64,000 nt of DNA from Microlunatus capsulatus (GTDB lineage: Bacteria; Actinomycetota; Actinomycetes; Propionibacteriales; Propionibacteriaceae). Both the position numbers and the translations under genes were made by a program. The notes below the pieces were generated by a model that saw only the letters and a program-made list of their open reading frames with translations, had not been told where the DNA came from and searched no databases. This document shows positions 26,002 through 30,620 of this stretch, piece by piece (within the stretch, counting starts at the first letter, position 1; each line of letters opens with the position of its first letter). The DNA is taken from NCBI RefSeq assembly GCF_017876495.1, contig NZ_JAGIOB010000001.1, positions 1,240,001 through 1,304,000 of the forward strand, read 5' to 3'.

Positions 26002-26832
26002 GTGAGCACCGAGCGACGACGGGTCCTGCTGACCGGGGCGACGGGGACGGTGGCCGGGCAGCTGCTGCCGGCCCTGCGGGAGGCCTACGACCTCCGGCTG
26101 GTGGACGTCCGCGACACCGACCGGGACGGCCACCGGGTCGAGGGCGTGGAGCTGCTCGACCTGCTGGGGGCCGACGACGCGGAGCTGCTCGCGCTCGTCG
26201 ACGGCGTCGACACGGTCGTGCACTGCGGCTACGCGCCGTCGGCCGGCGAGCCCACCTACGCGCAGGAGCGGCGCAACGTCGACATGACCCAGCGGGTCCT
26301 CGAGGCGGCGCGCACGGCCGGCGTCCGCCGCGTCGTCGCCGCGAGCACCAACCAGGCCTCGAAGTGGTACGAGCGGCCCTGGGCCGAGCACCGGATCGAC
26401 CGCGTCGGTCCCGAGGACTACCCGAAGCCCGACTCCTGGTACGGCTGGGCCAAGGCGGCGTACGAGTCGATGGGCTTCCTCTACGCCTGCGGCGCCCTGG
26501 GCCGCCCCGTCGAGGTGGTGCTGGTGCGGATCGTCGCCCCGCGGGAGATCGACGCCGCCGACTTCGCCGACCGCCCCCTGGAGCGCTACCTGCGCGACAT
26601 CGCCGGCTACGTGAGCCCGCGCGACCTCGCCCAGCTGTTCACCCGCTCGGTCGACGCCCCGTCGGTCGACGACCGGTTCGGCGTGCCGTTCCAGATCTTC
26701 TACGGCGTCTCGGCCAACGCGCGCACGTTCTGGAGCACCACCAACGCCCGGGAGGTCGTCGGCTACGACCCCCAGGACGACTCCGAGGTGCGGTTCGCCG
26801 ACGACATCGCCCGGATGCTCGCCCGCGGCTGA
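26002..26832 (+). CDS. NAD(P)-dependent epimerase/dehydratase (extended SDR)
   Basis: 276 residues. Rossmann motif TGATGTVAGQLL at the N-terminus, catalytic Tyr and Lys in SWYGWAKAAYE, and NAD-loop VRRVVAASTNQ. The pattern (short length, STNQ...WYGWAKAAYE) resembles uronate dehydrogenases as well as sugar epimerases. It points away from hldE, with an 18-base gap between the two stops, so a role as HldD is possible but not shown. Start fixed by the leaderless promoter. Confidence 0.8.
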   Translation: MSTERRRVLLTGATGTVAGQLLPALREAYDLRLVDVRDTDRDGHRVEGVELLDLLGADDAELLALVDGVDTVVHCGYAPSAGEPTYAQERRNVDMTQRVLEAARTAGVRRVVAASTNQASKWYERPWAEHRIDRVGPEDYPKPDSWYGWAKAAYESMGFLYACGALGRPVEVVLVRIVAPREIDAADFADRPLERYLRDIAGYVSPRDLAQLFTRSVDAPSVDDRFGVPFQIFYGVSANARTFWSTTNAREVVGYDPQDDSEVRFADDIARMLARG

Positions 26833-26850: not shown

Positions 26851-28356
26851 TCAGTCCGCCAGCGGCTGGCCCCGGCGGGCCCGGATCCGGCCGACGACGT
26901 CGGTGGTGGACTGGCTGGGCACGAAGCCGAGGATCTGCACCTCGCCGCCGTAGCCCTCCACCACCGCCGCCTCGACGAGGTCCTCGGGCCGGTAGTCCCC
27001 GCCCTTGGCGTAGACGTCGGGCCTCAGCCGCTCCAGCAGCGGGACCGGGGTGTCGGTGTCGAAGACGGTGACGTAGGAGACGCAGCTGAGGGCGGCGATG
27101 ACGCCGGCCCGGTCCGCCTCGCCGTTGATCGGCCGCTCCGGCCCCTTGAGCCGGCGCACGGAGCGGTCGCTGTTGACCGCCACCACCAGCACGTCGCCGA
27201 GCTGCGCGGCCTGCTGCAGGTAGGTGGTGTGCCCGCGGTGCAGGACGTCGAAGCAGCCGTTGGTCATCACGACCCGGCGGCCGGCCGCGCGCTCGGCGGC
27301 GACCCGGCGCAGCAGGGTCTCCTCGTCGAGCGCGGCGTCGCCCACGCCGAGGTGCTCGACCAGCTCGTCGGTGGAGCAGACCGAGGTGCCGAAGCGCTGA
27401 ACGACGACGTCCGCGGCGGCCTGCGCCAGCGCGGCCGCGACGCGCAGCGGGGTGCCGGCGGCGCGGGCCAGGGTGAGCGCGGCGACGAAGGTGTCCCCCG
27501 CACCCGCCGCCTGCTTCTCGGCGCGCGGCGAGCCGGAGGTGCGGAACGGCCGGCCCTCGACGTCGTCGCCGGTCAGCAGCATCGAGCCGTCGCGGTCCAG
27601 GGTGACGAGCACCGCCGCCGCCCCCGAGCGCTCGCGGAGCTCGTCGGCCGCGCCGGTCAGCGCGGCCAGCCGGGTGCCGTCGGTGGGCACCGAGCGGCTG
27701 AGCAGCCGGAACGCCTCCTCGGCGTTCGGGGTGACCACGTCGGGCCGCAGGGCCGACCAGGGCGCGGCGTCGTGGGCGTCGACGACCACGAGGGGCGGGC
27801 GGGCCTGGCGGGTGAACGCGGTCCGGACGGCGTGCAGCAGGACGCCCGAGTCGTAGTCGCAGACCACCAGCGCCTCGGCCTCGACCAGGGCCTTGGCGGT
27901 GGCGGTGGCCAGGTCGTCCTCCAGGGCCGGCGTCAGCGCCAGGGGCTGGACGTCGTCGATCCGGACCAGCATCTGGTCGTCGGCGACCACCCGCGTCTTG
28001 GTCACGGTGGCGACGTCGGGTGAGTCCAGCAGCCCGCTGACCTCGACGCCGGCCCGCTCCAGCAGCGCGCGGAGCGTGCGGCCCGCCTCGTCGGCCCCGA
28101 CCAGGCCGACCAGCCGGACGTCAGCGCCCAGCGCGGCCAGGTTCATCGCCGTGTTGGCCGCCCCGCCGGGGACCTCGTGCCGCCCGCTGACCTCGACGAC
28201 GGGCGCGGGCGCCTCCCGCGAGAGCCGGTGGCTGGAGCCGACCCACCAGCGGTCGAGCATCACGTCACCGACGACGACGACCCGCGGCGCCCGGTGCCGC
28301 AGCGCCAGCGGGAGGTCGGGGGTGAGCGCGGTGACGTCGGCGAGGGAGGCGCTCAC
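26851..28356 (-). CDS. hldE: Bifunctional heptose-7-phosphate kinase / heptose-1-phosphate adenylyltransferase
   Basis: 501 residues. The PfkB kinase half (about 20-330) has VVVVGDVMLDRWW, VPGGAANTAMNLAALGADV and the catalytic AAGAGDTFVAALTLA. The nucleotidyltransferase half (about 360-501) has MTNGCFDVLHRGHTTYL (HxGH) and VNSDRSVRRLKGPERPI. Domain order equals E. coli HldE, which makes ADP-heptose from D,D-heptose-7-P with GmhB. gmhA and gmhB are not in the window. GTG 28356 overlaps the stop of an 18-codon ORF that has the only strong SD, implying translational coupling. The frame further upstream (to 28701) is not real coding. Confidence 0.93.
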   Translation of the reverse strand: MSASLADVTALTPDLPLALRHRAPRVVVVGDVMLDRWWVGSSHRLSREAPAPVVEVSGRHEVPGGAANTAMNLAALGADVRLVGLVGADEAGRTLRALLERAGVEVSGLLDSPDVATVTKTRVVADDQMLVRIDDVQPLALTPALEDDLATATAKALVEAEALVVCDYDSGVLLHAVRTAFTRQARPPLVVVDAHDAAPWSALRPDVVTPNAEEAFRLLSRSVPTDGTRLAALTGAADELRERSGAAAVLVTLDRDGSMLLTGDDVEGRPFRTSGSPRAEKQAAGAGDTFVAALTLARAAGTPLRVAAALAQAAADVVVQRFGTSVCSTDELVEHLGVGDAALDEETLLRRVAAERAAGRRVVMTNGCFDVLHRGHTTYLQQAAQLGDVLVVAVNSDRSVRRLKGPERPINGEADRAGVIAALSCVSYVTVFDTDTPVPLLERLRPDVYAKGGDYRPEDLVEAAVVEGYGGEVQILGFVPSQSTTDVVGRIRARRGQPLAD

Positions 28357-28409
28357 GCGGCTGCCCCGCGACCGGCGGCGGCGGAGCCGATCCAGCTGTT
28401 GGTACCCAT
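28353..28409 (-). CDS. 18-residue leader ORF overlapping the hldE start
   Basis: ATG 28409 sits seven bases after a perfect AGGAGGAG and encodes MGTNSWIGSAAAGRGAAA, with TGA overlapping the hldE GTG (GTGA). The hldE GTG itself has only a weak purine run, so ribosomes finishing this ORF probably reinitiate there. No known family is recognised. Confidence 0.55.
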   Translation of the reverse strand: MGTNSWIGSAAAGRGAAA

Positions 28410-28489
28410 AACTGCTCCTCCTACCCACTTCTCCTCGCCTCGACTGCTCGGGAGGAGAAGAAGTCCGGCAGCCCTCTGCAGGGACCGTA
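28410..28489 (-). promoter_or_regulatory. hldE leader with two mutually exclusive hairpins
   Basis: A minus-strand -10 TACGGT is at 28484-28489. In the transcript, arm A CTTCTCCTCC (28451-28460) can pair with arm B GAGGAGAAG (28428-28436, nine pairs) or with the SD AGGAGGAG of the leader ORF (28415-28422, seven pairs). A-B pairing frees the SD; A-SD pairing hides it. The layout is that of a translational switch. The ligand or trans-factor is unknown. Confidence 0.5.
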
Positions 28490-28534
28490 GCGGAGGTGCG
28501 GCAGGATCCCCGTCGTCGAGGAGAGGGAGGACGC

Positions 28535-29686
28535 GTGGAGGTCGAGAACACCTGGGTGGGGCGGGCGGCTCCCCGCTTCCCCGACGTGCGCCGGGTGGCG
28601 GTGCTGCGGGGCAGCGGGCTCGGCGACCTCGTGCAGTCGCTGCCGGCCGCGGAGGCCCTGGCGGCGGCGTACCCCGACGCCGCGCTGACGCTGCTGGGCA
28701 CGCCCGGCCACCTCGCCCTGCTGGCCGAGCGGCCGTCCCCGTACCGGACGCTGCTGGCGCTGCCGGCCCGGCCCGGCGTCCAGGCGGGCGTCGAGGACCC
28801 GGCGGCGACGGCGACGTTCCTCGCGGACGCCCGGGCGCAGCGCTACGACCTCGCGGTGCAGCTGCACGGCGGCGGCCGCAACGCCAACCCCTTCCTGCTC
28901 GGGCTGGGCGCGCGGCACACCGTCGGCAGCCGGACCGACGACGCCCCCGAGCTCGAGCGGTGGCGCCCCTTCCTCCACCTCCAGCACGAGGTGCTGCGCG
29001 GGCTGGAGGTGGTGGCCCTGGCCGGTGCCGAGCCGGTCGGGCTGGAGCCGCGGATCCACCTGCGCCCGGTCGAGCAGGAGCAGCGGGACGCGGCCCTCGA
29101 CGGCCCGCCCACCGTGGTCGTGCACCCCGGGGCCAGCGACCCGCGGCGGCACTGGCCGGTCGAGCGGTTCGCGGCGGTGGTCGGGGCGCTCGTCGCGGAC
29201 GGGGTCCGGGTCGCGGTGGTCGGCGACGCCGCCGAGGCCGGGCTGGCGGAGGCGCTGCTGGCCGCGGTCGACGACCCCCGGGGGCGGGTCCGCTCCCTCG
29301 CCGGCGAGCAGGACATCGGCGCGCTGGTGGGCACGCTGGCGTCGGCCGACGTCGTGCTGGCCAACGACTCCGGGCCCCGGCACGTCGCCGCCGCCGTCGG
29401 CACCCGGACCGTCGGGGTCTACTGGGTCGGCAACGTCGTCACCGCCGCGCCGCTCGGCCGCAGCCGGCACCGGGTCCAGGTCGGCTTCACCACGCACTGC
29501 CCGGTGTGCGGGCGCGACCTCACCGAGCCGGGCTGGACGGCGGAGCGCTGCGAGCACGACCCGTCGATCGTCGGCGACGTCGACCCGGGCCGGGTGCTGG
29601 CCGACGTGCGGGCGCTGCTCGCCGACGCGGTGCAGGAGCGGCGGACGGCCGCGGGGACGGGAGGGCGACGTGGACAGGCTGGGTGA
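28535..29686 (+). CDS. Family 9 glycosyltransferase (heptosyltransferase-like), first copy
   Basis: 383 residues, GT-B fold. AVLRGSGLGDLVQSLPAAEAL is the N-terminal GT9 signature. VVVHPGASDPRRHWPVERFAAVV and LANDSGPRHVAAAVGTRTVGVYWVG form the ADP-heptose-binding half. A C-terminal CPVCGRDL...RCEH cluster is present. GTG 28535 follows GAGAGGGAGG. Divergent from hldE and overlapping the next GT9 by 17 bases, so it belongs to a heptose-transfer unit; the acceptor is unknown. Confidence 0.88.
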   Translation: MEVENTWVGRAAPRFPDVRRVAVLRGSGLGDLVQSLPAAEALAAAYPDAALTLLGTPGHLALLAERPSPYRTLLALPARPGVQAGVEDPAATATFLADARAQRYDLAVQLHGGGRNANPFLLGLGARHTVGSRTDDAPELERWRPFLHLQHEVLRGLEVVALAGAEPVGLEPRIHLRPVEQEQRDAALDGPPTVVVHPGASDPRRHWPVERFAAVVGALVADGVRVAVVGDAAEAGLAEALLAAVDDPRGRVRSLAGEQDIGALVGTLASADVVLANDSGPRHVAAAVGTRTVGVYWVGNVVTAAPLGRSRHRVQVGFTTHCPVCGRDLTEPGWTAERCEHDPSIVGDVDPGRVLADVRALLADAVQERRTAAGTGGRRGQAG

Positions 29687-30620
29687 GCCGGACGGCCGAC
29701 CGGAGCTGCTGGTGCTGCGCGCGCTGGGGCTGGGCGACCTGCTGGTCGCGGTGCCGGCGCTGCGCGGGATCCGCCGGGCCCGGCCCGACGCGCGGGTCGT
29801 GCTGGCGACATCGGCCTGGCTGGAGCCGGTGGTGGAGCTGGCCGACGCCGTCGACGTGCTGCTGCCGACCGTGGAGCTCGCCCCGCTGGAGCTCGCGCCG
29901 GGGCGGGTGGAGGCGGCGGTCGACCTGCACGGGCACGGGCCGCGCAGCCGGGCGGTCTGCGAGGCGGTCCGGCCGCAGCGGCTGGTCGGCTGGCGGGCGC
30001 CGGGCTGGGAGGGTCCCGAGCACCCCGACGACGTCCACGAGCGGGAGCGCTGGGCGAGCCTCGTCACCGCCCACGGGATGCCGGCCGACCCGCTGGACCT
30101 CGCCCTGCGGCGCCCCGACCTGCCGAGCCCCCACCCCGGGGCGGCGGTGGTGCACGTCGGCGCCGCCTTCGGCTCCCGGGAGTGGCCGGTGGAGCGGTTC
30201 GGCGCCGTGGCGGCCGCGCTCCGCGGCCGCGGCCTGGAGGTCGTCGTGACCGGCGGGGAGCGCGACGTCGAGCGGGCCCGGCGGGTGGCCGAGGTGGCGG
30301 GGCTGCCCCCGGCCGCGGTGCTCGCCGGACGGCTCCCGCTGCTGGACTTCGCCGCCCTGGTGGCCGGGGCCGCGCTGGTGGTGACGGCCGACACCGGTGC
30401 CGGGCACCTGGCGTCGGCCTACGCACGCCCCTCGGTCGTGGTCTTCGGCCCCGCCCCGCCGGAGCACTGGGGCCCGCCGCCCGGACCGCACGTCGCCCTC
30501 ACGCACGCCGCGCTGCGCGGCTCCTCCCCCTTCACCGACCAGCCCGACCCGGCGCTGCTCGCCGTCACCGTCGAGGAGGTGCTGGCCGCGGTCGACTCGC
30601 TCGACGTGAGCCCGCCCTGA
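29670..30620 (+). CDS. Family 9 glycosyltransferase (heptosyltransferase-like), second copy
   Basis: 316 residues, a diverged paralogue of its neighbour. LLVLRALGLGDLLVAVPALRGI opens the GT9 fold. AVVHVGAAFGSREWPVERFGAV and VVTADTGAGHLASAYARPSVVVFGP match the donor-site motifs. Start GTG 29670 is chosen by GGAGGG four bases before it and by the GT9 signature beginning right after. The longer open frame upstream overlaps the first GT9. It probably adds a second sugar to the same chain. Confidence 0.88.
   Translation: MDRLGEPDGRPELLVLRALGLGDLLVAVPALRGIRRARPDARVVLATSAWLEPVVELADAVDVLLPTVELAPLELAPGRVEAAVDLHGHGPRSRAVCEAVRPQRLVGWRAPGWEGPEHPDDVHERERWASLVTAHGMPADPLDLALRRPDLPSPHPGAAVVHVGAAFGSREWPVERFGAVAAALRGRGLEVVVTGGERDVERARRVAEVAGLPPAAVLAGRLPLLDFAALVAGAALVVTADTGAGHLASAYARPSVVVFGPAPPEHWGPPPGPHVALTHAALRGSSPFTDQPDPALLAVTVEEVLAAVDSLDVSPP

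Follow-up and report, generated by a model that had tools for sequence, protein, structure and literature searches.

A Shine-Dalgarno-led short open reading frame overlapping the start of hldE in Microlunatus capsulatus as a candidate coupling mini-cistron

Coupled small open reading frames and the hldE locus

In Mycobacterium tuberculosis the gene PPE2 depends on a short upstream open reading frame (uORF), uPPE2, and the coupling of the two was shown with reporters and tagging (PMC11260477). As described in the passages of that study considered here, uPPE2 and PPE2 resemble the arrangement that we report for hldE of Microlunatus capsulatus: a short, out-of-frame uORF led by a Shine-Dalgarno sequence (SD) precedes a gene that has no SD of its own, and stop and start codons overlap by 4 nt, as AUGA in uPPE2-PPE2 and as GUGA in hldE. 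The two differ in that a B12 riboswitch is linked to uPPE2, whereas the hldE leader has no Rfam match and precedes another gene. Some mycobacterial small ORFs coupled through RTGA keep the linkage but not the peptide, according to the relevant part of a second study (PMC4633059), and the hldE uORF is like them in that its TGA lies inside the downstream start as RTGA; the M. tuberculosis set in Figure 6 of that study, however, consists of leaderless transcripts, whereas the hldE uORF has a strong SD and an inferred 5' leader. On termination-reinitiation coupling of neighbouring genes, a review states that short ORFs may serve only for ribosome delivery (PMC12548453). Overlapping stop and start codons, as at hldE, are described there, but the partners are usually full genes, whereas the partner of hldE is a mini-ORF in M. 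capsulatus and an aldehyde dehydrogenase gene in 11 of the 24 relatives that we examined. Translation has also been portrayed as pervasive, such that a translated short ORF alone is no proof of function (PMC9094748, in the portion used here).

That the same architecture recurs in uPPE2-PPE2 and in the RTGA-coupled mycobacterial small ORFs argues for coupling at hldE. In the accessible parts of the open-licence literature we found no described leader, riboswitch or coupling for hldE or rfaE, which fits the statement of a first-pass annotation of this DNA that no leader was known for heptose synthesis in actinobacteria, although the general architecture had been described (PMC4633059, PMC11260477). 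The candidate hldE mini-cistron would be a new case of an arrangement, the SD-led or RTGA-coupled small ORF, that is already known in actinobacteria.

The window that we analysed is a stretch of 64,000 nucleotides of the M. capsulatus genome. On its minus strand, hldE (26851-28356) encodes, as judged from its domains, a bifunctional heptose-7-phosphate kinase / heptose-1-phosphate adenylyltransferase and begins with a GTG that lacks an SD. The protein matches PfkB (1.6e-37) and CTP_transf_like (4.2e-16) and passes the adenylyltransferase model TIGR02199 (193.6 bits against a cut-off of 181.5); it falls below the cut-offs of the full-length model PRK11316 (395 against 521 bits) and of the kinase model TIGR02198 (242.6 against 345 bits). 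Across a divergent region of 178 bp lies a heptosyltransferase-like gene of glycosyltransferase family 9 (GT9; 28535-29686, plus strand; PF01075, 6.7e-25), whose start was set by our own gene caller, and a second heptosyltransferase-like GT9 gene occupies 29670-30620 on the same strand (PF01075, 2.3e-23). An epimerase-like gene called by our script (26002-26832) is convergent with hldE. Because hldE is divergent from GT9 and convergent with the epimerase-like gene, the leader probably serves hldE alone.

In the nearest relative compared (G006), a long inverted repeat, which is perhaps a terminator, separates hldE from the epimerase-like gene convergent with it (L010, 1444-1494), with outer arms of 13 bp each (GGACTTCTGGCGG and CCGCCAGAAGTCC); in L009 of M. 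capsulatus there are no arms of this kind. A second sugar-kinase-like gene is seen at C1:2829589-2830476 of the M. capsulatus genome (L034) and at L002, preceded by a gene that by eye looks like GT9, with a TGA/ATG overlap in the form ATGA. Near L034, C1:2830619-2830760 is 80% identical to window positions 28559-28699 within the GT9 gene, and this neighbourhood may be another cluster of heptose type. The gene of the genome that best resembles gmhA (C1:3902102-3902557, L220) is distant from hldE and, at 158 bits, falls short of the TIGR00441 cut-off of 209 bits.

The mini-ORF and its conservation in the nearest relative

The proposed coupling cistron is an 18-codon ORF, MGTNSWIGSAAAGRGAAA, on the minus strand (28353-28409), with its ATG at 28409 and a counterpart in G006. 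Seven nucleotides from this ATG stands the SD AGGAGG (28417-28422), which is identical in G006 and has a score of 4.8 in both genomes; about 8% of 347 called genes have an SD score of at least 4. The TGA of the mini-ORF (28355-28353) overlaps the hldE GTG (28356-28354) within a 4-nt GTGA (28353-28356) that is also present in G006, the two frames being offset by one, and the SD score at the hldE GTG is 0 in both genomes. On a minus-strand reading, the coordinates that the first-pass annotation had given for the arms of its hairpins, the SD, the ATG and the ORF are all correct, and its observations that the stop of the ORF overlaps the hldE GTG and that hldE lacks a good SD are borne out.

How often such an arrangement arises was gauged in 400 kb of the M. 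capsulatus genome, the window included, and 400 kb of G006, with gene calls and SD scores from a home-made script using simple codon and SD criteria; an ORF was counted as a uORF if it was out of frame, had 8-60 codons and ended between -12 and +30 nt from the gene start. With an SD score of at least 4 demanded, only one of 213 first-in-unit genes in M. capsulatus and one of 222 in G006 had a uORF, and both times the gene was hldE, a rarity that argues for coupling. Lowering the score to at least 3 gave five genes of the 213 and four of the 222, hldE among them. When no SD was demanded, uORFs ending near the start were common (76/213 and 78/222), as was RTGA at first-in-unit starts (89/222 and 82/230, counted with a slightly different filter). 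The case therefore rests on the strong SD of the short ORF: what is unusual is that a short ORF with so strong a ribosome site ends at the same gene in both genomes.

HldE is about 90% identical between M. capsulatus and G006, and G006 retains the divergent GT9 neighbour. The SD, the ATG, the frame and the GTGA are retained as well, which also points to coupling. Its uORF has 19 codons (MGSETRTGPAVAGRGSAAA) and aligns to that of M. capsulatus with one 3-nt indel; elsewhere in the alignment of the leader, the indels are of 4 nt and 2 nt. The first 14 codons comprise six that are identical, one synonymous difference and seven non-synonymous differences, so that selection on the peptide is not apparent; as far as this comparison of two sequences goes, the frame of the uORF appears conserved and its peptide does not. 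At 79% identity, the 150-nt leader ranks 45th of 108 upstream regions, an ordinary rank that makes general conservation no argument for the uORF. A DNA search with the leader found matches in 16 of 198 family genomes; the whole leader was matched only in M. capsulatus and G006, and the matches in other genomes were stretches of 24-62 bases. By codon log-odds, the M. capsulatus uORF is near gene-like (-0.35, where the intergenic 90th percentile is -1.8 and the gene-start 10th percentile -0.3), and that of G006 is intermediate (-1.6 over 18 codons, where the intergenic 75th and 90th percentiles are -3.7 and 0.8).

Upstream, the hexamer TACGGT (28484-28489, minus strand) is a candidate -10 box within a conserved block, GCACCTCCGCTACGGTC, that is kept in G006. 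It occurs 13 times, against 1.02 expected, in the 353 upstream regions of both samples, and a sigma-70 consensus scan found no promoter. From this box, transcription would be expected to start near 28477. A leaderless hldE mRNA was considered and set aside, as by inspection there is no TANNNT just before 28356.

Competing folds and other readings of the leader

SD-sequestering leader switches and attenuators have a pyrimidine arm that can pair with the SD or, alternatively, with an arm that competes for it, and the same could happen here. On the minus strand, the pyrimidine arm CTTCTCCTCC (28451-28460), of which the same 10-mer is present in the G006 leader, could pair with the purine arm GAGGAGAAG (28428-28436), which G006 shares at 8 of its 9 positions, leaving the SD free, or, from sequence and folding, with the alternative arm AGGAGGAG (28415-28422), which contains the SD and would thereby be hidden. 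It is unlikely, in our estimation, that a signal sets the translation of the uORF and hence of hldE through this choice; the first-pass annotation had proposed that hldE expression depends in part on which hairpin forms, and this part of its proposal is not supported. Assuming a transcript from near 28477, two exclusive folds are indeed predicted in both genomes, the first hairpin while the SD is still to be transcribed and, after transcription has passed the ATG, a fold that hides the SD; in G006 the three arms have hardly changed. The M. capsulatus leader, however, folds no better than shuffled sequence (z = +0.34): among 1,000 dinucleotide shuffles, 479 match the stability of the hairpin formed before the SD, 440 the cost of opening the SD and 153 both. 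For G006 only 6 of 1,000 shuffles reach the stability of the first hairpin and none reaches both measures, although 447 match the SD-opening cost; this strong hairpin is the sole result favouring structure. Of the 108 upstream pairs, 13 have a 7-bp inverted-repeat core common to both genomes (the hldE/GT9 region is counted twice among them, once for each of its sides), and a purine-rich, SD-like repeat would be expected to pair with any pyrimidine tract. Covariation of the arms, on which the switch might have drawn support, was looked for by inspection of the two sequences, which showed no compensatory change; with arms that are almost the same in both genomes, this comparison neither supports nor excludes the pairing. 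A search of 28000-29000 against Rfam gave no match at an E-value of 1 or below, and there is no terminator-like site in 28200-28900. By inspection the uORF has no run of a regulatory codon, and its peptide is Ala/Gly-rich. Unlike known SD-sequestering switches and attenuators, the leader in the window does no better than its shuffles, and neither covariation nor a codon run was seen in it. An amino-acid attenuator was rejected on the lack of a codon run, of a terminator and of a conserved peptide.

The inverted repeat of the leader might instead be a DNA operator between divergent hldE and GT9 promoters, a reading that its place within the 178-bp divergent region would suit, as would the 11-bp perfect repeat seen by inspection in G006. 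The repeat nevertheless lies downstream of the likely -10 box, and the pattern CTTCTCC-N(10-30)-GGAGAAG recurs once elsewhere in M. capsulatus and once elsewhere in G006, has three occurrences in each of the genomes G001 and G010 and has none in G004, too few for a regulon to be visible; we hold an operator to be very improbable. A multi-copy operator or shared leader was discarded on the same single additional repeat in each of the two genomes. Perfect copies of GGAGAAGTGGGTAGGAGG were found only at the hldE leader of M. capsulatus and G006, and with up to three mismatches the pattern gave 23 matches in 20 genomes, against 50 for a reversed-pattern control. Were hldE to start at the in-frame GTG at 28428, with a basic N-terminal extension of 24 residues, the uORF would be accidental. 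G006 also has this GTG and its weaker site, a GAGG at a distance of 9 nt, and the hldE frame is open far upstream, but the extension looks non-coding, with log-odds of -16.5 over 23 codons in M. capsulatus and -12.4 over 24 in G006, and the contrast with the -0.35 and -1.6 of the uORFs favours the coupling reading. Moreover, the likely hldE starts of relatives lie within about 12 residues of the position of 28356, and the strong, conserved SD and ATG would be left unexplained, such that we think an upstream start quite unlikely. One could also imagine the uORF start to be the old hldE start, severed when an insertion shifted the frame and then rescued through restart at GTGA, since the start regions of hldE genes of 63% identity look alike by eye (M.T..W) and, without gaps, only 6 of 701 gene starts equalled the similarity of M. 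capsulatus to L013. For M. capsulatus against L011 and L012, by contrast, 47 of 701 gene starts did as well, for G006 against L011, L012 and L013 109 to 208 of 701, and in a gapped comparison 32 to 163 of 701. With similarity to the 63% clade thus mixed and strong only for M. capsulatus against L013, this origin was rejected, and we give it very little probability. A programmed frameshift fusing uORF and hldE was likewise rejected, no slippery heptamer common to both genomes being found by inspection.

Overlap partners of hldE among relatives and the proposed coupling

We compared 25 loci, that of M. capsulatus and those of 24 relatives with HldE identity of at least 47%. The relatives comprise all matches at E<=1e-120 in 198 family genomes, all matches at E<=1e-110 in genomes drawn from larger groups (391 of the order and 393 of the class), and the four actinobacterial records among the matches listed, at least 80 loci, in a further scan, of which the other 76, by title not actinobacterial, were left out. 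Immediately upstream of hldE, and on its strand, 11 of the 24 relatives examined have an aldehyde dehydrogenase gene that runs into the hldE start; the overlap is 4 nt (RTGA) in nine (L060, L061, L063, L041, L140, L141 and L143-L145), 1 nt in L062 and 11 nt in L142. No dehydrogenase gene lies directly upstream in M. capsulatus, G006 and 12 other relatives, one of which (L146) has only 384 nt of upstream sequence. At E<=1e-80 the aldehyde dehydrogenase has no match in the M. capsulatus or G006 genome; G001, G004 and G010 have one match each, 3.0-3.6 kb from hldE. For hldE of these three genomes, and likewise of L039 and L040, an SD-led ATG (scores 2.4-5.1) is available as a start.

By the same SD and overlap criteria, no such uORF was found in the other 23 relatives, except in L141, where an SD-led 10-codon ORF shares the stop of the dehydrogenase and is an internal start of that gene; L144 and L147 have SD-led ORFs of 22 and 32 codons near hldE that are weaker and overlap otherwise. 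Among the relatives, the SD, ATG, frame and GTGA of the mini-ORF are seen together in G006. The arrangement is carried by two genomes only, both of one genus, and thus belongs to a small clade; in the relatives around it, hldE often overlaps an upstream gene through RTGA (nine of the 24 examined). The dehydrogenase overlap in 11 relatives, together with the lack of a close match in M. capsulatus and G006, also favours coupling, and it may be that the mini-ORF replaced a lost dehydrogenase gene as overlap partner. That a two-layer heptose switch, with competing hairpins gating a mini-cistron obligatory for hldE, evolved in this small clade after the loss of the dehydrogenase seems to us rather improbable.

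The 18-codon ORF is likely, in our view, to be translated and to act as a coupling mini-cistron that hands ribosomes to hldE, a predicted role that is well supported by the anatomy of the locus and the base rate. The coupling suggested in the first-pass annotation fits a strong SD on the uORF, an hldE without one and a GTGA overlap kept in G006 despite divergence of the peptide. Translation, reinitiation, the transcription start and the history of replacement are the inferred parts of the model. Transcription would start about 70 nt upstream of the mini-ORF ATG, as placed from the -10-like box; ribosomes would load at the strong SD of the mini-ORF, translate its 18 codons, stop at the TGA within GTGA and reinitiate at the overlapping, SD-less GTG of hldE. 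The sequence of the peptide would be unimportant; what would matter is that the mini-ORF is translated and that it overlaps hldE by 4 nt. With the dehydrogenase gene missing in the lineage of M. capsulatus and G006, the mini-ORF may fill its role.

The locus carries a warning for gene annotation, in that hldE appears to be without a ribosome site. If the proposed coupling is correct, hldE would be preceded by a clean, SD-led mini-cistron whose sole job is to deliver ribosomes and, as the hldE of relatives overlaps a real gene, the locus would offer a natural comparison in which coupling has outlived the loss of the upstream gene.
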